A stretch of DNA of 64,000 bases, from NCBI GenBank assembly GCA_963920705.1, contig OY987227.1:7105102-7169101 (forward strand). Reading direction: 5' to 3'. Within the stretch, counting starts at the first letter, position 1. Each line of letters opens with the position of its first letter. Shown here piece by piece: positions 6,453-63,001 of the stretch. The notes under the pieces are model-generated. The model searched no databases. It saw nothing but the letters and a program-made list of their open reading frames with translations, and was not told where the DNA came from. Source of the stretch: Odiellus spinosus. Lineage: Eukaryota; Arthropoda; Arachnida; Opiliones; Phalangiidae. Both the position numbers and the translations under genes were made by a program.

Positions 6453-6462
6453 TGATGTTTTT

Positions 6463-6902
6463 TTAAAGGGAGAATGCAACCTAATTACAAGTGATTTTTT
6501 ATTGATTCCTTATCGTTTAAATAGGCCTAATCCATCGATAAAAAGTTTACAATACAAATTTTAAACTAGAAATAAATTTAAAACTTACCGTGAAAATAGG
6601 CTTAGCTGGATTCATGGAGATCCTGAATCGCGTCCGTGTAAGGTCTAGCGACCAATGAGCAAAGGCCCGTCGTTCACGCGAGATCTCCACGAGACTTGCA
6701 GTCGCGCGCGATTGGTCGCTAGAACTTACACGCGAGGAAATCAGGACCTCCATGAATCCCGCTACGCCTATTTTCAGGGAAAGTTTTAAATTTATTTCTA
6801 GTTTAATATTTGTTTGTAAATATTTTCAGTAGTGGATTAGGCCTATTTAAACAATAAGGAATCGATAAAAAAATCACTTGTTAGGTTGCATTCTCCCTTT
6901 AA
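6463..6902. mobile_element. TTAA foldback MITE, family A copy 1
   Basis: The element is flanked by TTAA on both sides. It opens AGGGAGAATGCAACCTAA and closes with the inverse (TTAGGTTGCATTCTCCCT). The two arms are about 150-200 bp inverted repeats sharing CTAGAAATAAATTTAAAACT and AATAGGCTTAGC. The core carries CGACCAATGAGC and an inverted GATTGGTCGCTAG. No ORF of interest; the 68-residue minus ORF is in the arms. Non-autonomous; the mobilising enzyme is not identified, although TTAA duplication is typical of piggyBac-class elements. Confidence 0.88.
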
Positions 6903-7502
6903 AGGCGCAACGCTTAAAATAAAAAATAATTGATAGGGCGTTTAAGTACCAGTTTAAAGAGATACATAATTAAGCCTTGGACAAAAAAGGGTTTAGTTAT
7001 GGAAAATATCAAACGCCCAACGTATTAAGACAGACTTTGCGATGTCAATAACTTTTGTACGCGTTTTCAACCAGGATCTCAATCGTTGAAAAACATTAAT
7101 TTAAAAATATTACAAATACTTTTAAAACTTAACATCACAAACGCCATCCAGATTGAAAACAAATGGAGATTTTTTGGATTGAACACGTTTTTGTACGAAA
7201 CATTCCAGAAACCTTTCATTTTCCCCCAACAACTCAATTGGTAAAAGAACATTCATTCATCCATTGAAAGAAAGAATTAGAAGTATAAAAAGGTGAATGA
7301 CTTCCCTATACAGAAAAATAAATTGAATTCCAAAGACCCAGAAAATTAGAATTTGCCCTCTGCAATACCCCAACCTCAATAAAGCGTTCGAAAAAGGAAT
7401 ATTTCTTAACAAAATGATATTTCGAGAATAGGTTAAGAGTGTCTGACGAAATCACGGGCACGCGTGAGACACGAAAGAAAATTAGACAAATTCCTCAGCA
7501 TC
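6903..7502. other. No gene recognised
   Basis: Unique-looking AT-rich spacer between two family A copies. Confidence 0.4.
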
Positions 7503-8723: not shown

Positions 8724-9428
8724 TTAAAGGGAGAATGCAACCTAACAACAAGTGATTTTTTATCGATTCCTTTTGTTTAATTAGGCCTAAACCACTAGCG
8801 AAAAAATTACGAACAAATATTAAACTAGTAATAAATTTAAAACTTACACAGAAAATAGGCTTAGCGGGAATCGTGGAGATTCTGATTTCCTCACGTATAA
8901 GGTTTCGTGAAGATCTCGCGTGAACGACGGGTCTTTGCTCATTGGTCGCTAGACCTTACACGAATACAATTCAGGCTCTACATGACGCTAAGCCTATTTT
9001 GATGGTAAGTTTTAAATTTATTTCTAGTTTAATATTTGTTCGTCAATTTTTTCACTAGTGGATTAGGCCTATTTAAACAATAAGGAATCGATAAAAAAAT
9101 CTTTTGTTATTAGGTTGCATCAAGAAGGATCAGACAAGGAGAGGAAAAGTAGGACTGCGTTGAGTTAGAGAGAGAAGAGCCAACCTCCCACTCGGGTGGA
9201 AAGGGGATAGGAAATTCTCGGGGTAAACTGTTGTCACTTGGTCACTAGCGTCGTTGGCTACTACGAAGCTGATAAAGGATCCGTTTTACCCACGTGACAA
9301 CGTTTTACCACGAAACATCTCTACCCCCGTTCTCCCAGAGTGGGAGTTTAGGCCGACGCAGTAGGAACTGCGCCGTCCCCACTTTTCCTCTCCTTGTCTG
9401 ATCCTTCTTGGTTGCATTCTCCCTTTAA
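8724..9428. mobile_element. Family A copy 3, interrupted by a family B element
   Basis: TTAA flanks at 8724-8727 and 9425-9428 enclose complete A-family arms. The right terminal repeat is cut at GGTTGCAT (9120), and the same GTTGCAT resumes at 9411 after a 290 bp insert. The arms carry GGTAAGTTTTAAAT near 9003 and its complement in the left arm. Confidence 0.88.
9121..9410. mobile_element. Family B foldback MITE, copy 1
   Basis: It begins CAAGAAGGATCAGACAAGGA and ends with the inverse, giving about 30 bp of near-perfect terminal repeat; the interior also folds back (GTAAACTGTTGTCAC against GTGACAACGTTTTAC). The direct repeat GTTGCAT (7 bp, or 8 bp with a leading G) flanks it. No coding capacity. 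hAT-like by duplication length, an inference. Confidence 0.92.
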
Positions 9429-12026: not shown

Positions 12027-12421
12027 CAGGGTGTTTCGAAAATGGTGGTAGGACCGAGCTACAGTGGGTTCAATGGGTCATTTTAAGACGAAAATGTTCT
12101 ATGAAGTTTGTCGTACCGGGCGCCGTTTCAGAGTTACGAAATTAATCCTGTACGGAAGACCCCTAAACGTACATTAATAAACGTATAGTCAACGATAAAA
12201 TACGTTTAATTATTTAGCTGGTTTTTGAAAAGCACGGGTTTGATAATAGATTTTATCATCAATACGTTTATTAATGTAAGTTAAGGCGTCATCCGCACAT
12301 GATTCATTTCATAACTTTTAAACGGCGCCCCGTACGACAAAACGTCATAGAACATTTTCGTCTTAAAATGACCCATAGAGCCCACTATAGCTCGGTTCTA
12401 CCATATTTTCGAAACACTGAG
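12027..12421. mobile_element. TA-flanked foldback MITE with ~120 bp arms
   Basis: It begins CAGGGTGTTTCGAAAATGG and ends with an inverse copy (ATTTTCGAAACACTGAG), and TA lies on both sides (12025-12026 and 12422-12423). The arms run for about 120 bp with few mismatches, sharing GGGTCATTTTAAGACGAAAA and GGGCGCCGTTT. The ends and TA target fit a Tc1/mariner-class MITE. No transposase is present. Confidence 0.9.
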
Positions 12422-14074: not shown

Positions 14075-14752
14075 AGAGTTTCTTTGAGAAGCTTGACGAT
14101 AAAAAGCAAAGTTTCTAAGCCTCGTTCGACTGGGTGCTTTCGAACCGAATGGGTTCAGCTGTCAAGTTGGTAGTGGCTTGTTCTCCCGATCTTTCGGACC
14201 ATTTCTCAAATTCGCTCTCTACGATACCACGGAGGACAATACGAACGCGTTTTAAGACTAGAAACGAGGTTAGAATCTCGAGTCGGTGAGAAAAAGTGGA
14301 AGAAAATAAATTTTTACGGCCATAAAGGAAAAGAAAAAGTCTTCCGTAATAAAAATAAAGATACGCCATCACAAATACCTGACAAAACAATAGCCAGAGG
14401 ACTTAAACTCGATTGCTTAAAAAAACCACTGACAAGAAAAATATAAAAAGAAAAGAAAAAAAAATACTTTCAAAGTCAGTAACGCGCTGAAATAACCAAA
14501 ATTTTCAAGTTATTTGGTCCCTCCTTCGATCACTCTGGCACGTAATAAGGGATTACCAAACTAGGCACGTATTTAGCATTGAGTAAGAGCTGCATAGGGA
14601 TTTTACGAAAGTGGTTAGACTCTAGCGGGTTTTACGCCGATGTTGGGCGATGGACGAAATAAACAAAATTAATTTGTTTCAAAAAATTAACCGAGTTTTT
14701 GACAATAATGTCGAGTAGTCTCTATTTTAGCGAAGGGATTTAATGTACACTT
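14075..14752. other. No supported gene
   Basis: A 91-codon minus-strand ORF (14115-14390) lies here; its sequence resembles no domain I recognise and it has no flanking splice evidence, so it is not called. Confidence 0.35.
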
Positions 14753-15041
14753 AAGCTAACGTCACACTAACATTTCTTAATCGATTTGAAATGGTAAAAT
14801 CAAACCGATATTCAAATCGACAGGAATCGTTTTAATCGTCACGCGTTATCTTTATAAATCGATTTATCGTAGCTTCATCTATCGGTTGTTGAAACCGAAT
14901 CGGTACGAAACTGGTTCCCGAAGCAGTTTCGAGAAATCGAATCAAATCGATTCGAGAAAAGACGCTTTCCGGTTCACATGACTCTAGCGAAACGTTTTGA
15001 AACGGTTTAAATCGATTCCAAGGTCCAATATGAACGCGGCT
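14753..15041 (+). mobile_element. Family C element, copy 1
   Basis: It opens AAGCTAACGTCACACTAACA and closes AATATGAACGCGGCT; TAA lies outside both ends. The interior holds TCATCTATCGGTTGTTGAAA and GGTTCCCGAAGCAGTTTCGA, conserved in all family C copies. About 290 bp, no ORF conserved among copies. TWA-type flanks suggest a PIF/Harbinger-like MITE, an inference. Confidence 0.8.
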
Positions 15042-23556: not shown

Positions 23557-24042
23557 TTAAAGGGAGAATGAAAGGGCGAAACAACCTATTTTTAATCGAT
23601 AATGAATGCGAAAATAATGAGAAAAACAATAATATAACTCACCAAAAATATTTCGTTATTTTATAATCAATTTCCAAAGTTCCGAAACTTGCAGATGCTA
23701 AGCCTTGGCTGCCTAGCTCGGCGAACTAGGCGAGCACGAGCCGTATTTTTTTTAATATTCCCCTCTGATCTAGTCGCCAATCACGAGCGAGTATGCGTAT
23801 TTTTAAAATACGCGTACTCGCTCGTGATTGGCTACAAGACCAGCCGCAAATATTAAAAAAAAATACCGGTCGTGCTAGCCTAGTTCACCGAGCTAGGCAG
23901 CCTAGACTTAGCATCGGAACTTTGGAAATTGATTATAAAATAACGAAATATTTTTGGTGAGTTATATTATTGTTTTTCTCATTATTTTAGCATTCTTAAT
24001 CGATTAAAAATAGGTTGTTTCGGCCTTTCAATCACCCTTTAA
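23557..24042. mobile_element. Near-perfect 480 bp palindromic TTAA element
   Basis: The whole element folds back on itself: arms of about 240 bp meet at GCGTATTTTTAAAATACGC near 23804. The ends are AGGGAGAATGAAAGGGCG and its inverse, with TTAA on each side. The arms share AATAATATAACTCACCAAAA, GGCTGCCTAGCTCGG and CCAATCACGAGCGAGTA with scattered substitutions. The ends resemble family A but the interior is different, so it is a separate subfamily. No ORF. Confidence 0.92.
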
Positions 24043-24360
24043 GTACTTTTACGAAAAAAACGGCGCGAAAACGACTTTGTTCACTCGTGTCAGAACGCGC
24101 GAGAATCACCTGTATGTTCTACACAATAGCGATATCAGGCGACCATATTGATAACATAATATTGCGGGGAATTTTTATTTTAAAAATTTCGAAAATAGCG
24201 ATTATAAAATATGTATTTTTACTATCTCTGTAATTTTGTTCTATGACATATGTATATATATTTTGAATCGTTTTTTAACGATCTTTCCGAAAATGCTACT
24301 CAATTTCAATTTGGAGTTCATTAAAAATCAATACCAGCCTCGCTTTAAGAAAATTGCAGA
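24039..24360 (+). repeat. Dispersed family E, copy 2 (uninterrupted)
   Basis: It starts TTAAGTACTTTTACG and contains GATTATAAAATATGTATTTT, TTCTATGACATATGTATATA and ACTCAATTTCAATTTGGAGT. It is the undisturbed counterpart of the copy split by the mariner element at 51782-54349. Confidence 0.82.
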
Positions 24361-28298: not shown

Positions 28299-29275
28299 CA
28301 GGGTTCGTACAAAATTATAATTTCCCTGAGTTTTCCAGGTTTTCCCTGATCATTTCTAAATAATTTCCCTGACTTTTCCAGGTTTTCCCTGACCATTTCT
28401 AAATAATCTGACTTTTCCAGGTTTTTCCTGACCATTTCTAAATACTCCCCTGACTTTTCCAGTTTTCCCTGACCATTTCTAAATAATTTCCTCGATTTTT
28501 ACAGGTTTTACCTGACCTTTTCTAAATAATTTTCCTGCCTTTTCCAGGTTTCCCCTGACCATTTCTAAATAATTTCCCTGACCTTTGCAGGTTTTCCCTG
28601 ACCATTTCTAAATAATTTCCCTGACCTTTGCAGGTTTTCCCTGACCATTTCTAAATAATTTCCCTGACCTTTGCAGGTTTCCCCTGACCATTTCTAAATA
28701 ATTTCCCTGACCTTTGCAGGTTTTCCCTGACCATTTCTAAATAATTTCCCTGACTTTTCTAGGTTTCCCTGATCATTTCTAAATTTACCTGACTTTTCCA
28801 GGTTTCCCTGATCATTTCTAAATAATTTCCCTGATCATTTCTAAATAATTTCCCTGATCATTTCTAAATAATTTCCCTGATCATTTCTAAATAATTTCCC
28901 TGACCATTTCTAAATAATTTCCCTGACCATTTCTAAATAATTTCCCTGACCATTTCTAAATAATTTCCCTGACCATTTCTAAATAATTTCCCTGACTTTT
29001 CTAGGTTCCCCTGATCATTTCTAAATTTACCTGACTTTTCCAGGTTTTTCCTGACCATTTCTAAATACTCCCCCTGACTTTTCCAGTTTTCCCTGACCAT
29101 TTCTAAATAATTTCCCCGATTTTTACAGGTTTTACCTGATCATTTCTAAATAATTTCCCTGACTTTTCCAGGTTTTCCCTGTCTATTCTAAATAATTTCC
29201 CCTGTCTATTCTAAATAATTTCCCTAAGTTTTCCAGGTTTCCCCTAACCATTTCTAAATATTTTCCCTGACCAAC
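28299..29275. repeat. CAGGGTTCGTAC element expanded as a 22/43 bp tandem array
   Basis: It opens CAGGGTTCGTACAAA and then repeats TTTCCCTGACCATTTCTAAA (22 bp core) alternating with CTTTTCCAGGTTTTCCCTGA units (43-44 bp together). Around 28800-28990 the 22 bp core alone is iterated about eight times. The closing terminal repeat is not clear. Confidence 0.92.
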
Positions 29276-31712: not shown

Positions 31713-31714
31713 TT

Positions 31715-31716
31715 AC
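31715..31716 (-). promoter_or_regulatory. 5' splice donor of the SH3 exon
   Basis: On the minus strand the reading frame runs GAAGCCGAACC then GTAAGTCTTACC. The exon closes two bases into a proline codon, at the point where the Src42A protein family stays conserved (IEAEP), so this donor is well supported. Confidence 0.85.
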
Positions 31717-32150
31717 GGTTCGGCTTCGATAGATTTAAGCTTGGCAACGTAATTAGAAGGAATGTAGCCCTCGTGCTTGGTAGCTTTGGACTTGGCAAAC
31801 CACCAGTCTCCTTGAGTGTCGTTTATAATTTCCAAGTGTTCTCCTTTCTTGAACGAGAGGTCCTCGTCGGTCCGGGCGTCGTAATCGTACAACGCGACGA
31901 ATATTTTGGCCGATCCACTACCCGAATTTTCAGCGTCGATAGGAACGGGCGGTAAACTGGGTCCGTTTCGCGTTGATAAATCGGCGACGTTGTGCCTGAT
32001 GGAAGTTTCGTGACTTTGAAGCGCTAAGCCTAATCCGACGTGCGGTTGAGAGATGACCGCGGGTCCGATCGGATTCTCGATCCTTTCCACCGGTCCATTT
32101 CCTTCGTTTTTGGTCGTTCGAGTCGCCGAACGACTGAAACAATTACCCAT
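31717..32150 (-). CDS. Src42A: Src42A-type tyrosine kinase, first coding exon (N-terminus and SH3 domain)
   Basis: Src-family kinases are membrane-anchored cytoplasmic tyrosine kinases acting in epithelial, adhesion and receptor signalling. The exon encodes 144 residues plus two bases. It starts at ATG 32148-32150 (context CACGATGGG, purine at -3). An in-frame upstream ATG at 32358 would add 70 residues but would hide the MGNC start, so it was rejected. Residue G2 is the expected myristoylation site and C4 a likely palmitoylation site. Residues 9-80 are a variable linker. Residues about 82-140 are a full SH3 domain: [15 protein letters not shown] (86-100), the WW pair at 116-117, and PSNYV (131-135). 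The LKSIEAEP end is typical of the Src42A branch rather than Src64. SH2 and kinase exons are not seen, so the gene should extend to lower coordinates and perhaps out of the window. Orthology is from remembered family features. Confidence 0.93.
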
Positions 32151-32410
32151 CGTGAACCGAGGGTTAATACTACATCGGTATTTAAACGGAAAATGTGGAA
32201 AAACCCGCCCGAAATTTGATTTAACGTCGACGTAAAAACCGCCGCGATAACGCGAACCTCCGGCGTACGATACCGTAAACCCGACTGAAAGAGCCGTTGT
32301 CAGGCGACGAAGCCAAAAACCAAAGCTTCCTGGGATCTTCTTCCGCGCCCCTAAACCCAATCACTCGTAAAGTACCGAACTAAGCCTAATTTCGAAACAG
32401 CGTCACTCCG
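32151..32410 (-). promoter_or_regulatory. Probable 5' UTR/promoter side of the Src42A-type exon
   Basis: This CpG-bearing stretch immediately upstream of the MGNC start is more GC-rich than its surroundings. The frame stays open upstream to 32360, but the translation does not look like a protein. No TATA box or clear 3' splice site could be fixed. Confidence 0.4.
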
Positions 32411-33660: not shown

Positions 33661-34971
33661 CTTAAAATTCAACTAAATTGAAAAGTAAAATGTATCATCC
33701 CACAGTACAATTTTATGAAAAACAAACATACTGTAATGCAAAGGTTCCTTCAGGAATATTTGTCTGGGAGTTAGGGTCATAGTTCAGGACCATATAAAAG
33801 GCTGGTCTTATTTTTCTTAGGCATAACTGGGTCATAAACAGGTTAATAAGATATTTAAAATGTATTGATACGCTTTTATGTATCCAAAGCTCCTATAAAT
33901 AATTAAATTAAATACCGATAGTGACATTATAATTAACAGGTGAAGCCAAACGAGGCGGATAACCTTTCATTGGCTATCAAACGAATAAGGCCACTCCCCA
34001 TCCGGTCTGTTTGCTCTATATTAGTATTTAGCAATCAGTATTCCTTTCCCTTAGTTCCCTATCTATTTTAGAAGGTTTTCTTTCAGGCACCTATCGCCCC
34101 TGCGAGCGACTAACCTACGCCCTCGCTTAATTAACTGAGTACATTCGAACGCAGCGCGCGTCGAAAAAAACCAAGGCGCTTCTCTGAAGAGAAGTCTTCC
34201 TTGATGATCTTCGGGATGGATTCATCCCTAGATTGCGCCGCGTACGAATATCAAAGTGATTTTGACCCTAGAGATACTTTGCACGCGCTGAAAACTCCAA
34301 CTGTCAATCAAGCTCGAAAATGTTTGCACGCGCGATGATTGAAAAGAAGAAAATCTCGAGCTAAAATCAATCCAAGTAAAAGCTGAATGAATTGAAAGGC
34401 TATAATTCAGACTAAATTTCTACTCGTTGTTTCTCTTTCCTCTAACATCGCTTTATTCGCTATCGTTTCGTGGATAGACTTATATAGTAACACAAATCAG
34501 TCATTGTTTTCAGCACGTGAGAAGGTACGCTCTAGTCTTTATCTCACTTGAATTCAAATTATAGAAATAAAGTGAACGTGGTTCGCTAGATATTTTTCCC
34601 ATGGTAATAAAAAGGCGGGAAAAGGGTGATTCCGCGTTATCAGGAGTTGATTTTTCCCGCCTTTCCCCTTATTAAAGGGTCTATACGAATAGTGTAGCGC
34701 GAATACCATCGATTATAGACTATAATCCCGTCTCTATTATTTTATTTAATATCCGCTATGACCTTAATATCGGCAAACCTTTTTTTCTTCAACGCTTTAT
34801 AATGGTCTGGCGCGAAGCTATAAAAGGGAACCATAACCTTTAACCCTAACACAATTTTCATTCATGGAGTTGAGAAACCAACCAAGTTATTAACAAGGAG
34901 AAATTATTACAAAAGGAGAGCCAGAAGTGATTAAATTGGATGGTGGCGAAATTAAAGATGGTCAACACCAT
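33661..34971. other. No gene; one short inverted repeat
   Basis: GGTAATAAAAAGGCGGGAAA at about 34601 pairs with TTTTCCCGCCTTTCCCCTTA near 34650, an imperfect foldback of about 80 bp. Nothing coding is supported. Confidence 0.45.
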
Positions 34972-35243
34972 AGCTACGGTCACACTAGCATTTCTTAATC
35001 GATATTCAAAACGTCAAGAATCGTTTTAAGCGTCACGCTTTCAGGCGTTATCTTTATAAATCGATTTATCGAAGCTTCATCTATCGGTTGTTGAAACCAA
35101 ATGGGTAGGAAACTGGTTCCCGAAGCAGTTTCGAGAAATCGAATCAAATCGATTAGAGAAAAGACGGTTTCCCGTTCACGCGACTCCAGGGAAACGTTTT
35201 GAAACGGTTTAAATTGATTCCAAAGCCTAGTATGAACGCGGCT
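34972..35243 (+). mobile_element. Family C element, copy 2
   Basis: It begins AGCTACGGTCACACTAGCAT and ends TAGTATGAACGCGGCT, with the conserved CTATCGGTTGTTGAAACC and CCCGAAGCAGTTTCGAGAAA interior. Confidence 0.88.
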
Positions 35244-36425
35244 TTAGGGTAAACTTGCGGTAATGATTCGAGTGATCAACAAGGATTTTTTTTTCTAATA
35301 GATCAACTTTCAAATGAAAGGCAATTAGTTATTAAACTCATTTCATTCACATCTATCATTACAAAGACGATCACTTGTACCCAAATGCAAGTTCACGAGG
35401 CCCGGGGCAAGTACCCCCTCACAGCCCCATTTAACTGGACCAGTAGACGTGACCGCCTATTTCTGAAGTGAAACAAAATGATTTGGGGGCTCTGAGACTA
35501 AAAAACATTAGTTATTTAGTCTTAAATAGGTCGCGATAAAAGTGATATTAATAAAATAAGAGCTGTATATCGGTAAAAACTAATACGCGGTTTGTTTCCG
35601 TGCATACCACCCAAGCTTGACGGGACACTTTGTTACTAAAATAGGCTTAATGAAACCAATGGTTCTTTACGGGAAAGTTAGCGGAAAAAAGCTTAAGGTT
35701 TAAGTATGGGTGTGGCAATATTCCTATATAATCAAGTTCATCCTTAGAATCGGTATATTTTAACCTAGAAAAACTCGTTTCTCTTACACGAAAAGTGACT
35801 CTTTCTTAAGTCGCATTCTCGTATACTTTCTACATATTCTTTCGAAAAAATTTTTGATCTTCGCGCGTAATTCACGTCAAACCATCCAACTACCACAATC
35901 CACCACTATTAATTTTTATATATCTTTAATATTAAAACGAGACTTTAGTTTTAAAGGGAAGGTGAAACGAAATCCAGAATGAACCGAAAATCATTTCAAG
36001 GTCGTCTTGTGGAGTATGCATATCTTGCAAACCGGGGAGTATCAAACCTAGGACCAAAAGTCAATCACTTTATTCCTTAAAAGTAAACAACGCCCCGTAG
36101 CTTAACGCTATCAGCAAAGGTCCAGTTTTACGTCATATCACATCACTTAAAATAGCCAAAAAAGTCATCATCCCTGTCTGACTCGAGTGATTTGGACTCT
36201 TCAGCTCGATATTTTGAGTCGGGAGAGATGGACGGAATTTAGGCGGGCCACGCTTGGCTATATTGTCTTTCCTCCCAATTCCGGAATTTCTCAGCAGAGT
36301 GGCGCTTCCTTCGTTAACTATTTACACACCGACTGAGGCCGCTAGAGTTTCTCGAATCAGAATTTGCATATGAACTTTAAAAGACATACTTTTTACTAAA
36401 GAGGCCTTCATTGCAAAACCTCTTG
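35244..36425. other. No gene recognised
   Basis: Unique-looking sequence; no tandem arrays. Confidence 0.4.
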
Positions 36426-42187: not shown

Positions 42188-42935
42188 TTTGGAAGGTTTC
42201 AAATGACTCAAAAATCTTTGGCAGCGTCAATTTAGATTTAAATACACGTTATACATTATATATTTTGTTTATTCGGTGCTGGAAAACCGGGTGAAACTTT
42301 CCAAAAACTGATGATTGGATAGAAGCCAAGCTCGAACTTCCTTGAAGCGTCACGCGAGACGCGACCTCTATGGGTTAGGCAACATTTAGGCGTCAGTCTT
42401 TTTGAGTACGTAATATTCTGATTTTGTAACTCCCTTTGAAGATTATAAGGTGCTGGCCATCAGTTAGGTACTCTTCTCCGCCCTAAAATTATACGCTAGA
42501 AGCTAGACGGTACGTGGGGCCTAAACTTCGCTATATGGTCTTTCTTTCTTCAGCCAAAATATAATCGATATTAGGGGGCCTTTCAAAATTTGAACTGCTA
42601 GACTGGCATCTAAACGTGTGGGAGGAGATCCCTTAAAATATGAGGTCCCGATTCGATCACCCGGCACCCAACTCACCCCTCTTTCGCGTTTTAATCTTAT
42701 AATATTGACTTACAATATAAGAAGGGACTTATATAACACCGTTTCCTAATACGAATTAGGTCCGTTACAAAGTCGCAATCGGTTGTTTCGTTTATACGAA
42801 AGAAACCCTATGAATTTTGACTATTTATTAACATTATATCGATATGACATCGCAGCGTCCCTGAAATTAAATCAAATTAAATAATTTTTGTGTTTTTCAG
42901 TTCGCGCGAAATTATAGGCTCTCTTTTATGTCTTA
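42188..42935. other. No gene recognised
   Basis: Unique-looking sequence. Confidence 0.4.
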
Positions 42936-43232
42936 AGCTGCGTTCATACTAGGCCTTGAAATCGATTTAAACCCGTTTCAAAACGTTTCGCTGGAGTCGT
43001 GTGAACCGGAAACCATATATCCGCGAATCGATTTGATTCGATTTCTCGAAACTGGTTCGGGAACCAGTTTCGTACCGATTCGGTTTCAACAACCGATAGA
43101 TGAAGCTACGATAAATCGATTTATAAAGGTAATGTGTGAACACGTAACCCTTAAAACGATTCCTGGCAACTTCAATGTCGGTTTGATTTTACCGTTTCAT
43201 ATCGATTAAGAAATGCTTGTGTGACCGTAGCT
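42936..43232 (-). mobile_element. Family C element, copy 3
   Basis: The inverse orientation starts AAGCTGCGTTCATACTAGGC and ends TGTGTGACCGTAGCT. TTA-type bases flank both sides. Confidence 0.88.
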
Positions 43233-43274
43233 TTAGTATAAGTAAATAATAGAGATTACCTCCGGGCCTACTTT

Positions 43275-43547
43275 AGCTACGGTCACACTACCATTCTTTA
43301 ATGGTTTGAAACGGTAAAATCAAACCGATATTCGAATGGCCAAAAATCGTTATAAGCGTCATGTGTTCACGCATTATCTTTATAAATCGATTTATCGTAG
43401 CTTCATCTATCGGTTGTTGAAACAGAATCGGTAAGAAACTGGTTCCCGAAGCAGTTTCGAGAAAAGACATAGTTTCCGGTTCACACGACTTCAGCGAATC
43501 GTATTGAAACGGTTTAAATCGATTCAAAGCCTAGTATGAACGAAGCT
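43275..43547 (+). mobile_element. Family C element, copy 4
   Basis: It starts AGCTACGGTCACACTACCAT and ends TAGTATGAACGAAGCT, only about 40 bp from copy 3 and in the opposite orientation, so the pair forms a long inverted repeat. The 79-residue minus ORF is family C sequence. Confidence 0.88.
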
Positions 43548-43557
43548 TTATACAGGA

Positions 43558-48664: not shown

Positions 48665-49048
48665 TTAAAGGGAGAATGAAACCTAAAAACAAGTGATTTC
48701 TCATCGATTCCTTATCGTTTAAATATTCATAATTGAATAATAAAATAATTTAAAAACAAATATTAAACTAGAAATAAATTTAAAACTTATCATCAAAATA
48801 GGCTTAGTTGGATTCATGGAGATCACGTAGCAACCAATGATACTGATCGATACGGAGAATGCGGGATCTCCATGATATCAATGTCATTGGTCTCTAGTCC
48901 TTATATGGGGAATACTGGATATCTCCGTGAATTCATGCAGCTAAGCCTATTTTGATGGTAAGTTTTAAATTCATTTCTAGTTTAATTTTTGCTTGTAATG
49001 TTTTTTTACTGTTGGGTTAGACCTATTTAAATCGTGAGTAATCGATAG
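48665..49048. mobile_element. Family A copy 8, right end replaced
   Basis: The left end is intact (TTAA, AGGGAGAATGAAACCTAA). The right arm has GATGGTAAGTTTTAAATTCA and ATTTCTAGTTTAA but stops at GAGTAATCGATAGATATCAC, where the 32 bp array begins. Confidence 0.82.
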
Positions 49049-49069
49049 ATATCACTCCACTCCCCTTAA

Positions 49070-51779: not shown

Positions 51780-52091
51780 TACAGGGTGGAAACCTTCGCC
51801 GGCGTCCAGTCGAGATACTTCCCCTTGCGCATTGTTGTTATTCAGTGAAATGTTAAGGGATTTACAGGCGCTATTGGGATCAGTTCACTTCAGTTCCACT
51901 TAATAATCAAAGGTTTCAGTTTTAATGTAGAGAAATGAAATGCATAAGTGAAATCAATGACGGATTTAATTTAATTTAATTAGGAAAGAAAAGATGTCAC
52001 TTGCGGAAACCAAATAGCCCAAATTGAAGTTAATCAAACATTTCCAAATTTAAACATTGAACTCTTCAAATTCATTTTTAATAACAAAGCA

Positions 52092-53036
52092 TTACATTAA
52101 ATGTTCAAAATGTCTTCCGTCGACATTGACACACTGCCGACAACGGAATTGCCAGTTTTCTCTTTCGCGAGTTAACATCACGGGAGAAACGAGAGCAGCC
52201 GCTTGCTGAATTCGGTCTCGAAGGCTATCAAGTGTTGGTGGCTCAGTGGCGTACACAAGGCGCTGGTACCAGACCCGTCTTCGTTCTGCTAAGGGAAGAT
52301 CGTCTAGGGCATCGGACACTACGGTGTTTAAGAGATCAACGTAACGATCTCCGTTTAGATGTTCTTCGAGAAAAACAGGTCCAATTACCCGATCACCTAA
52401 CAATCCACATCAAACGTTTTTCCTCCAGTTTTCTTGGTGATGATTCGCCCTTAGCCAATGGGGATTTTCCCTCGACCAGTAGTGCATGTTGTGGCGGTTA
52501 ACTGTACCGTCCCGGTAAAACGTACACTCATCACTCGTAAGTACGTGGTTTAGGAAATTTCCATCGACTTCAATTTGGTCCAATACCCATCGGCAAAACT
52601 CTACGCGTGGTCCAAAGTCTTGTGGTTTAAGATGTTGGTGAAGATGAATTTTGTAGGGGTGAAATCCTTCACCACGAAGAATTTTTAAGACCGTTGTATG
52701 AGAACAATTTAAATCCGCTCCGATTGCCCGTGAACTGGTGTGGGGGTTTTCTACGATACGCCTTACTACTTCGTTTCGTCTGCCCGCCCCGTGTCCACCT
52801 CCTTGTACAACTGGCGGATGATGTTGATGTCGCACTGGTGCATTACGTCGAATCACCGTGCCTCTTTCAAGAAATCGGGTTATTGCGTTTAAAATTACTT
52901 GATGCCCCAGATGTGGCCGGTTCGGAAACCTTTCTGCAAACGTCCTAGCAGCAAACCTTGCGTTTCTCTGACACACTCCGTAAATGAAAAACATTTCAAG
53001 GTAATCCTCAAAACTGTACAAATCAATTTCAGCCAT
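52092..53036 (-). pseudogene. Tc1/mariner-class transposase, left copy: nonsense mutation and catalytic deletion
   Basis: Transposases of this class cut and paste DNA at TA sites using a DDE/D triad. The copy starts at ATG 53034-53036 and reads 208 residues. Residues 1-50 resemble the N-terminal helix-turn-helix region of arthropod transposases (YSFEDYLEMFFIYG). Residues about 88-126 form a second helix-turn-helix (NPHTSSRAIG ... HTTVLKILRGEG). D169 in LTSDECTFYRDG is the first catalytic aspartate, followed by the family motif NRHNMHYWSRENPHW. A TGA at 52410-52412 replaces the TGG of the right copy. The frame then continues (LLGDRVIGPVFLEEHLNG) to the stop at 52092. Between VWYQ and RLVYATEP, near 52262, the QDGAPPH and PDLTPLDFFLWG blocks expected from the family are missing, roughly 50 residues. 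It cannot encode an active enzyme. Confidence 0.93.
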
Positions 53037-53151
53037 GTTTTACCAGATGTAAGCTAGAAAACGGACTGCTTTCTTCAATCAGAAACATGTAGCCTTTGTT
53101 TCGCATTTACTGTCTTGGATTTTTATTGTTTTAAAAAATAAGAATTTTGTT

Positions 53152-54039
53152 GTGCATGACGTAGACTGCGAAACAAAGGTTAAATGTTTCTCATTGAAGA
53201 AAGCAGTCCGTTTTTTGTTGTTTGATTATGACCTAGACTGTTTTGTAAAAACCCGATTTCTTGAAAGAGGCACGGTGATTCGACGCAATGCACCAGTGCG
53301 ACATCAACATCATCCGCCAGTTGTACAAGGAGGTGGACACGGGGCGGGCAGACGAAACGAAGTTGTAAGGCGTAACGTAGAAAACCCCCACACCAGTTCA
53401 CGGGCAATCGGAGCGGAATTAAATTGTTCTCATACAACGGTCTTAAAAATTCTTCGTGGTGAAGGATTTCACCCCTACAAAATTCATCTTCACCAACATC
53501 TTAAACCACAAGACTTTGGACCACGCGTAGAGTTTTGCCGATGGGTATTGGACCAAATTGAAGTCGATGGAAATTTCCTAAACCACGTACTTACGAGTGA
53601 TGAGTGTACGTTTTACCGGGACGGTACAGTTAACCGCCACAACATGCACTACTGGTCGAGGGAAAATCCCCATTGGCTAAGGGCGAATCATCACCAAGAA
53701 AACTGGAGGATAAACGTTTGGTGTGGATTGTTAGGTGATCGGGTAATTGGACCTGTTTTTCTCGAAGAACATCTAAACGGAGATCGTTACGTTGATCTCT
53801 TAAACACCGTAGTGTCCGATGCCCTAGACGATCTTCCCTTAGCAGAACGAAGACGGGTCTGGTACCAGCGCCTTGTGTACGCCACTGAGCCACCAACACT
53901 TGATAGCCTTCGAGACCGAATTCAGCAAGCGGCTGCTCTCGTTTCTCCCGTGATGTTAACTCGCGAAAGAGAAAACTGGCAATTCCGTTGTCGGCAGTGT
54001 GTCAATGTCGACGGAAGACATTTTGAACATTTAATGTAA
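53152..54039 (+). pseudogene. Tc1/mariner-class transposase, right copy: N-terminus replaced, same catalytic deletion
   Basis: The open frame gives 295 residues, but the first 34 (from ATG 53152) are read through the central hairpin spacer and are not transposase. True homology begins at RFLERGT (residue 35). From there it matches the left copy except for a few substitutions (I/N, D/E, K/I) and has the intact tryptophan (residue 190) where the left copy has a stop. The first catalytic aspartate is D150. The VWYQ-RLVYATEP junction at about 53868 is the same as in the left copy, so the second and third catalytic residues are absent here too. The first N-terminal ~53 residues are lost. It ends VDGRHFEHLM, the normal C-terminus of the family. 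Confidence 0.93.
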
Positions 54040-54351
54040 TGCTTTGTTATTAAAAATGAATTTGAAGAGTTCAATGTTTAAATTTGGAAATGTTTGATTA
54101 ACTTCAATTTGGGCTATTTGGTTTCCGCAAGTGACATCTTTTCTTTCCTAATTAAATTAAATTAAATCCGTCATTGATTTCACTTATGCATTTCATTTCT
54201 CTACATTAAAACTGAAACCTTTGATTATTAAGTGGAACTGAAGTGAACTGATCCCAATAGCGCCTGTAAATCCCTTAACATTTCACTGAATAACAACAAT
54301 GCGCAAGGGGAAGTATCTCGACTGGACGCCGGCGAAGGTTTCCACCCTGTA

Positions 54352-58635: not shown

Positions 58636-59063
58636 TTAAAGGGAGAATGCAACATAAAAACAAGGGATTTTTTATCGATCCCTTATCGTTTTAATAGGCC
58701 TAATCTGACAGTAAAAAAATTACAAACAAATATTTAACTAGAAATAAATTTAAAACTTACAATCAAAATAGGCTTAGCCGGATTCATGGAGACTCCCCAT
58801 ATAAGGTCTGGCAACCAATGACATTGATCGACGGCTCTTATACTGGAAATGTAGGATCTCCTTGATAAATGTCATTGGTCGCTAGTTCTTATACGGGGAA
58901 TTCAGGTGATCTCATAAATCCAGCTAAGCCTATTTTCATGGTTTTAAATTTATTTCTAGTTTAATATAAGTTTATAATTTTGTTTACTGTTGTATTAGGA
59001 CTATTTAAACGATAAGAAATCAATAAAAAAATCACTTGTTGTTAGGTTAAATTCTCAATTTAA
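58636..59063. mobile_element. Family A copy 9
   Basis: TTAA then AGGGAGAATGCAACATAA opens the copy. The right end is decayed (TTAGGTTAAATTCTCAATTTAA). The core has AACCAATGACATTG and ATGTCATTGGTCGC as inverted CCAAT pairs. Confidence 0.85.
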
Positions 59064-59737: not shown

Positions 59738-60108
59738 AGCCGCATTCATAATAGGCCTTGGAATCGATTTAAAGCGTTTCAAAACGTTTCGATGGACTCG
59801 TGTGAACTGTAAAGCCTCGTTCATACTAAGCCTTGGAATCTATTTAAACCGTTTTAAAATTTGTCGCTGGACTCGTGTGAACTGTAAACCGTCTTTTCTC
59901 GATTCTATTTGAATCGGTTTCTCGAAACTGCTTCGGGAACCAGTTTCATACCGTTTCGGTTTCAACAAACGATAGATGAAGCTACGATAAATCGATTTAT
60001 AAAGATAACGCATCAACACGTGGCTCTTAAAACGATTCCTGGCGATTTGAATATCGGTTTCATTTCACCGTTTCAAATCGATTAAGAAATGATAGTGTGA
60101 CCGTAGCT
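59738..60108 (-). mobile_element. Family C element, copy 8, with duplicated end
   Basis: AAAGCCTCGTTCATACTAAG at 59811 starts the full element, and a partial copy of the same end (AGCCGCATTCATAATAGGCC) precedes it. The other end is TGTGACCGTAGCT. Confidence 0.85.
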
Positions 60109-60984
60109 ATAAGACGTCGAAAATATGCCCTAGTTAAAAACAACGATACTTTAACGTATCTTAAGGTCGAATACAAATTAATGAAAAAAAAAAAAAAAAA
60201 AAAGTTTTTTTCCAATTTGGGCAAGTTTTTCTCCAATTTGGGCAAGTTTTTCGATGGAAACAATACGAAACAGCCCACGCTACCAACGTTAAAACTCGTT
60301 AACAACAAAATTAAGCCGATATCTAATCCTGTGGTAGACTTCCTAACACGCTAACTCCAATATCAAGTCGGTATTTCGGTTTTAACTTTGAAATGGAAAT
60401 TAAACAGATCTAAAGGCTCGTTTTCAATCAAGATTTTTTCCTTGTGTCCAAACCAAGGTGAAGCTTAAATCAAGCTTTTCGTTAACACGCTTCGAATGAC
60501 AGAGAAGCCGATATCTAAATCGATTTGATATGTTTCTTTTGGAAAAGTCTCTATAGTAAACGCGGATTAAATGGCGTTGCTTATAACAAATATTGAAGCA
60601 AATCTTCGATTCCTATATTTTATACCTCCAAGATTGCGTCTCAAAGTTATGGCCCTCTTAAAACGTTCGAACATAGTGAGTGGAAAAGACGATTGTTTAT
60701 TTCACCTAGAGTTTACAGCACGCTCAAAGTTAGGCCCTCTAGTTATCACTACGATTTTGTTGATTTAGAATTAGAGCCAGTAGCTTTGAACTCGAAGGAA
60801 ACTTGAAACTTAATTTTAGACGGTTGTGGCTCAACGAAGCAGCGCGAGTAACTTGCATGGGAGCATCGTGCCATTACGATTCCCGCTCTTTTATTTTATT
60901 TTTTTCACAACTACTGTTAGAAAGCGGAGCCTCGAGACGGGAGAGATCGTACAATGTAGTTTTAAAGTGAATATGTCACGACTT
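60109..60984. other. Poly-A tract and GCGTTTTCAATC-family copy 3; no supported gene
   Basis: Poly-A at about 60183-60202, followed by a duplicated TTTTTCCAATTTGGGCAAG. From 60416 to 60560 the order GCTCGTTTTCAATCAAGATT, ATCAAGCTTTT, ACACGCTTCGAATGACAGAG matches 25780-25935. ORFs at 60571-60768 and 60826-61062 have no recognisable domain. Confidence 0.5.
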
Positions 60985-61152: not shown

Positions 61153-62131
61153 CAGGGTCCATATAAATCTGGAAATCTGAGGGAAAGATATTAAAGGCTG
61201 AAAAATCAGGAAAATGTCGGGTAAATTTAAAAATATTCAGGGAAATTTGAGGTTTGGGCATTATGTCCAAACGGGTTATTTCATCAACCACTCCAGTGTA
61301 TCCCAATATTATTACTCCATTTTATGGAGAGAAATGGATAGTTTGGTCTTGGATCTGGAAATTTCAGAGAAATATTTGTGGAAAAACAGGGAAATTTCAG
61401 GTCAATATTTGTGGAAAAACCTGAAAATTTCAGGGCAGTATTTGTGGAAAAACCGGGAAATTTCAGGGCAATATTTGTGGTAAAATCTGGAAATTTCAGG
61501 GCTATATTTGTGGAAAAACCTAAAATTTCATGGCAATATTTGTGGTAAAATCTGGAAATTTCATGGAAATATTTGTGGAAAAAACTGGAAAATTCATGGA
61601 AATATTTGTGGAGAAACATGGAAATTCCAGGGAAATATTTGTGGGAAAATCTGGAAACTTCAGGGAAATATTTTTGGGAAAACCTGGAAACTTCAGGGAA
61701 ATATTTGTGGAAAAAACTGGAAATTTCAGGTCAATATTTGTGGAAAAACCTGAAAATTTCAGGGCAATATTTGTGGTAAAATCTGGAAATTTCAGGGCTA
61801 TATTTGTGGAAAAATCTGGAAATTCAGGGCTATATTTGTGGAAAAAACTGGAAAATTCATGGAAATATTTGTGGAGAAACATGGAAATTCCAGGGAAATA
61901 TTTGTGGGAAATTCTGGAAACTTCAGGGAAATATTTTTGGGAAAACCTGGAAACTTCAGGGAAATATTTGTGGAAAAAACTGGAAATTTCATGGATATAT
62001 TTGTGGAGAGACATGGAAATTCCAGGTTAATATTTGTGGGAAAACCTGGAAACTTCAGGGACATATTTGTGGAAAAAACTGGAAATTTCAGGGAAATAGT
62101 TGTGAAAAAACCTAGAAATTTCAGGGAAATC
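61153..62131 (+). repeat. GGAAATTTCAGGG element, greatly expanded array with 263 bp higher-order unit
   Basis: The entry segment (CAGGGTCCATATAAATCTGG to TGGTCTTGGATCTGG) matches 63002-63210. Then some 25 units of about 29-30 bp follow (AAATATTTGTGGAAAAACC, TGGAAATTTCAGGG). A block starting GGAAAAAACTGGAAAATTCA at 61577 is repeated at 61840, 263 bp on, so several units were copied together. The ORFs of up to 166 residues on both strands (GKTWKLQGNIC, STNISLKFPGF) come from the repeat being open in several frames. Confidence 0.93.
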
Positions 62132-62604
62132 AGATTCGCGAAAGTTAAATTAATTATTTTAATATACGGTTATTTTCACGCGATCTCTTTCGTGAAAGTA
62201 CATTTATAATCCAGAATAATTCTATATGTAATCAAGCGAAAACAATTACCAATATATTTTAGTCAGTTTAATTTTCTTTTCAAAGCTTCAAACCCAGAAG
62301 TATAAACTTTTGAATATGTCGTTTTAATAGTATGATAAAACTAATAATATAATTCAACAAGCATTCGAAAAAAAAAACGGTGACAACTTCACTTTAAGGA
62401 AGTATGTTGCCCTATACGAATTGGGGGAATTAATTAGATTGGGAATCGAGGGAGAATCGGGCGGGGCTTGGGGGAAATCAGCGACCTAATAAACACGTGA
62501 TAGTCTAGCTGATCTATGTTGTATATTACAGAGTTTACGGAAAGCGTGTATTTTTACGGAGATCTTAAAAGAAGCCAGAATGCCAGATCCCAGAGGAATA
62601 ATAA
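62132..62604. other. No gene recognised
   Basis: AT-rich spacer; a possible family E-like block lies at 62200-62330. Confidence 0.35.
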
Positions 62605-62882
62605 AGCCGCGTTCATACTAGGCCTTAGAATCGATTTAAACCGTTTCAAAACGATTCGCTATACGGGAAACCGTCTTTTCTCGAATTGATTTGATTATAT
62701 TTCTCGAAACTGCTTCGGAAACCAGTTTCGTACCGATTCGGTTTCAACAACCGATAGATGAAGCTACGATAAATCGATTTATAAAGATAACACGTGACGC
62801 TTAAAACGATTCCTGGCGATTTGAATACAGGTTTAATTTTACCGTTTCAAATCGATTAGGAAATGCTAGTGTAACCGTAGCT
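62605..62882 (-). mobile_element. Family C element, copy 9
   Basis: The ends are AGCCGCGTTCATACTAGGCC and TAGTGTAACCGTAGCT, and the interior is standard for the family. Confidence 0.88.
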
Positions 62883-63001
62883 TTAGCGAAAAGCGTCTTG
62901 GGTCTAAAACTCAAAATAAACACGGGGATATACGAAAATGTTGCGCTCTTCGGTGGAATTTATTTTTACATTTGATAACAGATTTTTCCACCGTCTTTAT
63001 A

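Follow-up and report, generated by a model that had tools for sequence, protein, structure and literature searches.

A head-to-head foldback transposon with two outward-facing 3' ends, and its Tc1/mariner family in the genome of Odiellus spinosus

The 64-kb stretch of Odiellus spinosus DNA analysed here (the window) contains a real head-to-head foldback transposon, and comparison with its relatives in the host genome shows that the head-to-head build is the ordinary form of the family. It is probable that the mobile unit of this family is the palindrome itself, ending in two 3' ends, and that the copy in the window is a non-autonomous DD41D element with long terminal inverted repeats (TIRs). 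The case is evenly balanced for a further proposal, in which the family would have given up its own 5' terminus: a single fusion would have founded a line of palindromes with two 3' ends, whose arms then served each other as repair templates and passed on their defects.

The unit in the window is 2568 bp long and is flanked by one TA pair (Table 1), as expected from the original prediction of a single TA-flanked unit of 2.57 kb with intact outer ends. Its termini are CAGGGTGG...CCACCCTG, with TA on either side. When the whole 64-kb window was searched, CAGGGTGG and its complement were found at the two outer ends only, with no other such octamers in the window, so that the outer ends are indeed the sole termini. 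The inverted arms are slightly longer than the predicted 1.07 kb, at 1103 bp each, and differ by 7 substitutions and 0 indels (99.4% identity). The seven differences are confined to the inner 475 bp (52410-52884), leaving the outer 628 bp identical. Like its relatives, the window copy has the build of a foldback element, with long inverted arms making up most of its length around a short centre. Within that centre is a smaller inverted repeat of 48 bp with 3 mismatches.

Table 1. Features of the foldback transposon and of its empty target site in the window (M, reference position)
Feature	Position	Strand	Basis or remark
Paralogous empty target site, same host repeat without the transposon	24170..24348	+	Joined-flank match and alignment
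TA target-site duplication, left	51780..51781	.	TA single in empty-site paralogue
Whole foldback transposon, two outward-facing 3' ends	51782..54349	.	Ends, arms and joined-flank empty-site test
Left inverted arm, transposase sense on - strand	51782..52884	-	Arm alignment
Putative tract copied from right to left arm, largest extent	51782..52409	-	Switch point would lie between M756 and M891, about 52275-52409
Left transposase pseudogene	52092..53036	-	ATG at 53036; DUF4817; Tc3-type HTH under Pfam cut-off; 156-bp catalytic deletion
156-bp deletion junction, left arm, M904 joined to M1061	52261..52262	-	Alignment to reference
5' leader M61-108, left half of inner 48-bp repeat	53058..53105	-	
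M1-60 segment, loop of inner repeat	53106..53166	-	
5' leader M61-108, right half of inner 48-bp repeat	53167..53214	+	
X segment, 32 bp, adjoins the family's 38-bp filler	53215..53246	+	Centre 52885-53246 recurs in genome
Right inverted arm, starts at M282	53247..54349	+	Arm alignment
Right transposase pseudogene	53248..54039	+	Without N-terminus; 156-bp catalytic deletion as in left
156-bp deletion junction, right arm, identical to left	53869..53870	+	Alignment to reference
TA target-site duplication, right	54350..54351	.	TA single in empty-site paralogue

The two facing, nearly identical transposase copies that had been predicted are present in so far as the arms match and the 5' ends of both transposases point inward, but neither transposase is intact. 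The left one keeps its N-terminus and carries a TGG-to-TGA nonsense codon at about 52410-52412. Both arms are missing M905-1060, a stretch of 52 codons that includes the second and third catalytic aspartates (D2 and D3). Judged from its sequence, the window copy is a non-autonomous, inactive derivative.

To place this copy in its family, the 286 contigs (443 Mb) of the host assembly were searched with the arm, the centre and the end, and 40 candidates were scored in each DNA search from first-look totals of 219 (arm), 78 (centre) and 279 (end). The arm query gave 78 matches among the 40 candidates scored of 219. Together with the window, 31 regions from the arm query, three from the centre query and four from the end query made up 39 regions, which are not a random sample; L063-L065, with partial sequence, are excluded from the counts of builds, and blocks below 85% identity were dropped, also for the junctions described below. 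The outer arms were head-to-head and pointing outward in 38 of the 39 regions. The pairing of two copies, considered unusual in the original prediction, is therefore common in this family, and the pairing event belongs to the history of the family and not to the window locus. Both 3' ends were intact with TA on either side in 28 of the 39 regions, and at least one intact end was lacking in the other 11. Three pairs (L031/L032, L033/L035 and L040/L051) have flanks about 99% identical on both sides and were thus probably copied within larger segments, not by transposition, which reduces the 39 regions to 36 loci.

Copies with both ends ranged from 1459 to 4564 bp. L049 (2451 bp) and L026 (2724 bp) have second arms of more than 460 bp, and L033 (2278 bp) and several others are just below 2.3 kb. 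All four copies selected by their ends (L059-L062) are short foldbacks of 1459-1601 bp, built of M688-1540 and M915-1540 and sharing one junction with a 4-nt overlap; this subfamily is perhaps an abundant MITE-like derivative. The sole non-palindromic copy among the 39, L055 (2425-3843), has a single transposase arm, and on its other side 12 bp of end sequence, CAGGGTGGAAAC, stand directly before about M116. N makes up 2313 of the 5501 bases of that region, and L055 may have arisen by deletion or be the relic of a monomer.

The transposase of the family was characterized from L049, in which a 366-aa frame carries a DUF4817 domain (8.8e-12). The HTH_Tnp_Tc3_2 model matched this frame at 1e-5 with 26.1 bits, under the cut-off of 31.5, and none of the DDE Pfam models matched it at E 0.1 or better. 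With the residues assigned by motif and not by structure, the spacing is 90 residues from the first to the second D and 41 from the second to the third, that is, DD41D. Intact 366-aa frames with the three D motifs were found in eight arms (L026, L028, L033, L034, L038, L040, L049 and L051), of which those of L040 and L051 have common flanks. The Tc1/mariner class proposed for the window unit agrees with its TA target-site duplication and terminal inverted repeats and with the Tc-type HTH and D triad of the family transposase. L049 and L026, for example, show the size of long-TIR (LTIR) elements, with more than 2.3 kb in total and TIRs of more than 460 bp, and the family lacks the 28-32-bp TIRs of rosa proper. 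By these features the family is classed as a Tc1/mariner lineage with long TIRs, DD41D spacing and a DUF4817 domain. No relatives of the family were found in viral contigs or other genome contigs by tblastn-confirmed scans or in phages by blastn. A motif scan of the viral contigs gave 16 stretches, none of them a relative (best E 0.31), and among solved structures nothing matched credibly (best E 0.14).

The central junction is also found in other head-to-head copies, as the centre of the window copy recurs at many genome sites. The segment 52885-53246 was matched at 32 places over at least 359 of its 362 positions, with 93-100% identity, among the 40 candidates scored of 78; these places include the window's own centre and two in L025. 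The window centre is half of a full family centre, which was found in nine of the 39 copies (L039, L042, L043, L044, L046, L049, L052, L056 and L058) and consists of M61-108, X (about 32 bp), a 38-bp piece matching M282-319, X', and inverted M61-108. The 38-bp filler occurs in either orientation among these nine. In the three copies compared letter by letter, X' proved to be X in reverse complement; the match runs over 30 nt in L043 and L052 and is interrupted by small gaps in L049.

Outside the centre, the second arm is the variable part. A full second arm is absent from most copies, and many copies join the second arm directly from the filler or the leader. In five copies the second arm begins at M1 and is then interrupted: it runs to 75 in L043 and resumes at 1331, runs to 173 in L046 and L056 and resumes at 815, runs to 199 in L049 and resumes at 861, and runs to 247 in L058 and resumes at 915. 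L053 has two near-full arms. From BLAST block ends, with one value per distinct junction, 25 of 36 distinct junctions were direct joins; the 11 other junctions were left out of the overlap test. Among the direct joins, 18 of 25 overlapped by 2-6 nt, compared with 16% of random joins in the same sequence that overlap by at least 2 nt. We infer that second arms starting at M1 and followed by outward jumps are deletions of a full arm, and that two full arms came first; the founding fusion and the repair mechanism would likewise be read from these scars.

A simpler alternative is a plain long-TIR mariner, like those of aphids, with one transposase gene, in which the TIR of the window copy grew inward and no founding dimer ever existed. 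Copies in which one arm is full and the other measures about 0.5-0.65 kb (L027, L033, L037, L044, L050 and L057, among others) fit such an element, as does a total length of about 2.3 kb, which is that of Apismar5.1 (2307 bp with a 466-bp TIR; PMC5490172). However, five copies keep M1-75 to M1-247 beside the shared centre and then jump outward, L053 has both arms nearly full, and X and X' are mirrored round the filler. With these structures to explain, inward growth of a TIR appears unlikely, and the founding dimer is the reading followed below.

We propose a single founding event in which the 5' ends of two copies were joined and 38 bp of the transposase gene were copied in between as filler; polymerase-theta-type end joining or snap-back synthesis could have this outcome. 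Since both termini would then be the same 3' end, the pair could be cut and moved as one. During repair of the gap left by excision, the polymerase might switch between the inverted arms at microhomologies of 2-6 nt, and such switching would delete, extend or overwrite the second arm. The internal deletions would have arisen independently of one another through microhomology, as in abortive gap repair, which has been proposed for other elements (PMC5490172, PMC4168063).

The lineage of the window copy illustrates how a defect may pass from one arm to the other. The right arm of the window copy opens in the filler's form (A at M284), as it does in L026, L028 and L030, which is consistent with recombination between filler and arm having removed the right N-terminus. 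In L026, L028 and L030 the 156-bp deletion is on the right arm only, and the left arm keeps the 156 bp. The left and right arms of L026, the nearest relative of the window copy, differ at 18 sites, of which 7 are private to L026 and 11 are informative. At each of the five inner sites (M284-453) the left arm of the window copy agrees with the left arm of L026; at each of the six outer sites (M891-1495) it agrees with the right arm of L026, whose 156-bp deletion it also carries. Since M891-G and M1142-T occur in no other arm of the comparison, a right-to-left direction is favoured, its polarity resting on these two of the six outer sites; the other four right-type outer alleles recur elsewhere. 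The left arm appears to have been overwritten by the outer 0.45-0.63 kb of the right arm together with the deletion. Over the outer 480 bp there are 0 differences between the window arms, compared with 1-10 (mean 6.35) in 20 other copies.

A sibling, L025, has arms identical to those of the window copy, unrelated flanks, its own TA pair and 752 bp extra inside. In L025 a left-type piece (5/5 sites) is joined via a 3-nt overlap to an inverted right-type piece (3/3 sites), a join that looks like a preserved strand switch from one arm to the other. The presence of identical arms at another TA site indicates that the deleted version still moved, presumably mobilised in trans. The window lineage could thus have passed through recombination between filler and arm, with loss of the right N-terminus, then through the 156-bp deletion that took two catalytic residues from the right arm, and last through gene conversion or gap repair that copied the right-arm defect onto the left arm, the dead unit being moved in trans by relatives with intact reading frames. 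The extant forms can be ordered, though not dated, as L053, L028/L030, L026, and then the window copy with L025. Palindromic MITEs are widespread among insects, and how they arose is mostly a matter of conjecture. In this family the steps of fusion, deletion and conversion may be read from the scars, and the series would illustrate how a DNA transposon turns into a palindrome and how the defect of one arm overwrites the other.

Pervasive concerted evolution of the arms was also considered and set aside, the signal being weak only. For the arm comparison, 24 of 42 loci (41 and the window) were used, after truncated, short-arm, nested, single-arm, partial and shared-flank copies were left out. 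In a narrower set of 20 copies, among which related copies may remain, the two arms of one copy differed only slightly less than arms taken from different copies (6.35 vs 7.27 differences), and 2 of 20000 permutations reached this likeness; a permutation on the 24-copy set, with related copies and the window pair included, gave 0 of 20000, and the 20-copy result is the one relied on here. The own partner arm was nearest or tied nearest in 4 of the 24 copies. The weak likeness of partners and this low count indicate that arm conversion is not pervasive.

The head-to-head geometry permits a stem of about 1.1 kb, and from this geometry hairpin-RNA silencing is possible. It is very unlikely, in our view, that the unit has been kept because a hairpin transcript feeds small RNAs against its own family: the same build is found in 38 of 39 regions, including relatives with intact frames, so that the geometry does not mark the window copy as a silencer.

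The original prediction had excluded two independent insertions, and the empty-site test bears this out. The window flanks were joined with a single TA and searched against the host genome. The flanks belong to a repeat that is abundant in the host (2031 first-look candidates), and 38 of the 40 scored matches crossed the junction unbroken, the remaining two being the window's own flanks. One of the 38, in the window itself (Table 1), was aligned letter by letter and is gapless at the junction, with small gaps further out. An empty site with a single TA was also found for a different family member, L059, by comparison with sequence beside L045. Since the joined flanks match the host repeat unbroken at 38 places, the window unit was inserted whole, and the TA pair at its outer ends stems from a single insertion. 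Two separate ordinary mariners inserted head to head, with their inner ends deleted later, would likewise leave two 3' ends facing outward and no termini inside. This model is contradicted at the window locus by the single-TA sites, and it has to face a common centre at many sites and a sibling with identical arms; it could apply to the ancient founder only, and we regard it as highly improbable. A false inverted duplication can hardly be the explanation, even though long inverted repeats misassemble easily, as the window arms differ in substitutions and in their N-termini and the same structure stands on many contigs with differing centres and TA flanks.

How the family relates to described transposons was judged from the available portions of the papers cited here. 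By length, TIR size and catalytic spacing, and not by a tree, the nearest described group would be the LTIR DD40-41D clade of aphids, with Apismar5.1 and Apismar5.2 (PMC5490172); the same source credits Zhang et al. 2016 with the description of LTIR DD41D elements, under the name Lsra. The aphid elements likewise use a TA target, have 41 residues between the second and third D in Apismar5.1, measure about 2.3 kb with TIRs of about 460 bp, and include short derivatives with microhomology at the deletion points; their transposase of about 370 aa (370) compares with 366 aa here (PMC5490172). They end in TCACCAATT... or AATGTGTC..., whereas the present family ends in CAGGGTGG (PMC5490172). Unlike in the aphid clade, the second arm here is often coding, reaches 1.1-1.5 kb in some copies, and goes with the shared X, filler and X'; no head-to-head dimer is described in the available part of PMC5490172. 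Rosa / DD41D (Crmar2-like) elements share the DD41D spacing and the TA target, but their TIRs are 28-32 bp and the elements about 1.3 kb (PMC5490172). DD41D/Visitor, named in PMC8472432, also shares the spacing and the TA target.

For TIRs that take in internal sequence, the nearest precedent is Galileo, a foldback-like element of the P superfamily in Drosophila, which has long, fast-changing TIRs that recruit internal sequence and defective copies attributed to gap repair with template switching (PMC4168063). Galileo differs in its superfamily, in its 7-8-bp target duplications and in having a separate transposase segment between the TIRs (PMC4168063). The Bari LIR elements (Tc1) are Tc1/mariner elements with long TIRs of about 250 bp; these are far shorter than the arms here, and paired transposase arms are not described in the part of the source available (PMC4877112). 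KolobokP composite-like elements were set aside, their long repeats being direct and not inverted (PMC9587614). Two identical 3' ends are found in the engineered Mos1 3T3, for which an in vitro maximum rate of 5e-4 is given, against 2e-5 for the natural 5T3 (PMC3419177). Mos1 3T3 is an engineered construct of another mariner group and serves as an analogy only; the higher rate in vitro offers a possible reason for the two-3'-end form taking over, and raises the question of whether two identical 3' ends favour spread in nature as they do for Mos1 in vitro (PMC3419177). In the titles and abstract starts searched, most subscription papers being outside that scope, we found no report of a head-to-head mariner family, and literature searches for CAGGGTGG with transposon and for DUF4817 with transposase returned nothing on this element.

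Other repeats are found in the window. Near-palindromic repeats of about 365-490 bp lie at 6462-6903, 8735-9120, 48692-49056, 58636-59063 and 23557-24042. The first four match one another, and those at 6462, 58636 and 23557 begin (T)TTAAAGGGAGAATG; these repeats would represent another foldback or MITE-like family. A palindromic 387-bp repeat (12031-12417), preceded by TACAGG, begins GTGTTTCGAAAATGG, and its end resembles the CAGGGTG terminus of the Tc1/mariner type. There is an imperfect 626-bp palindrome at 42929-43554, with related copies at 14738-15041, 34970-35247, 59810-60111 and 62602-62886. Tandem repeats of the TTCCCTGAC type and of 33 bp form long arrays at 28317-29273, 61355-62130 and in other parts of the window. 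Seven open reading frames of at least 130 aa are present in the window; the one at 31713-32360 contains what we take to be an SH3-type, Src-kinase-like start.
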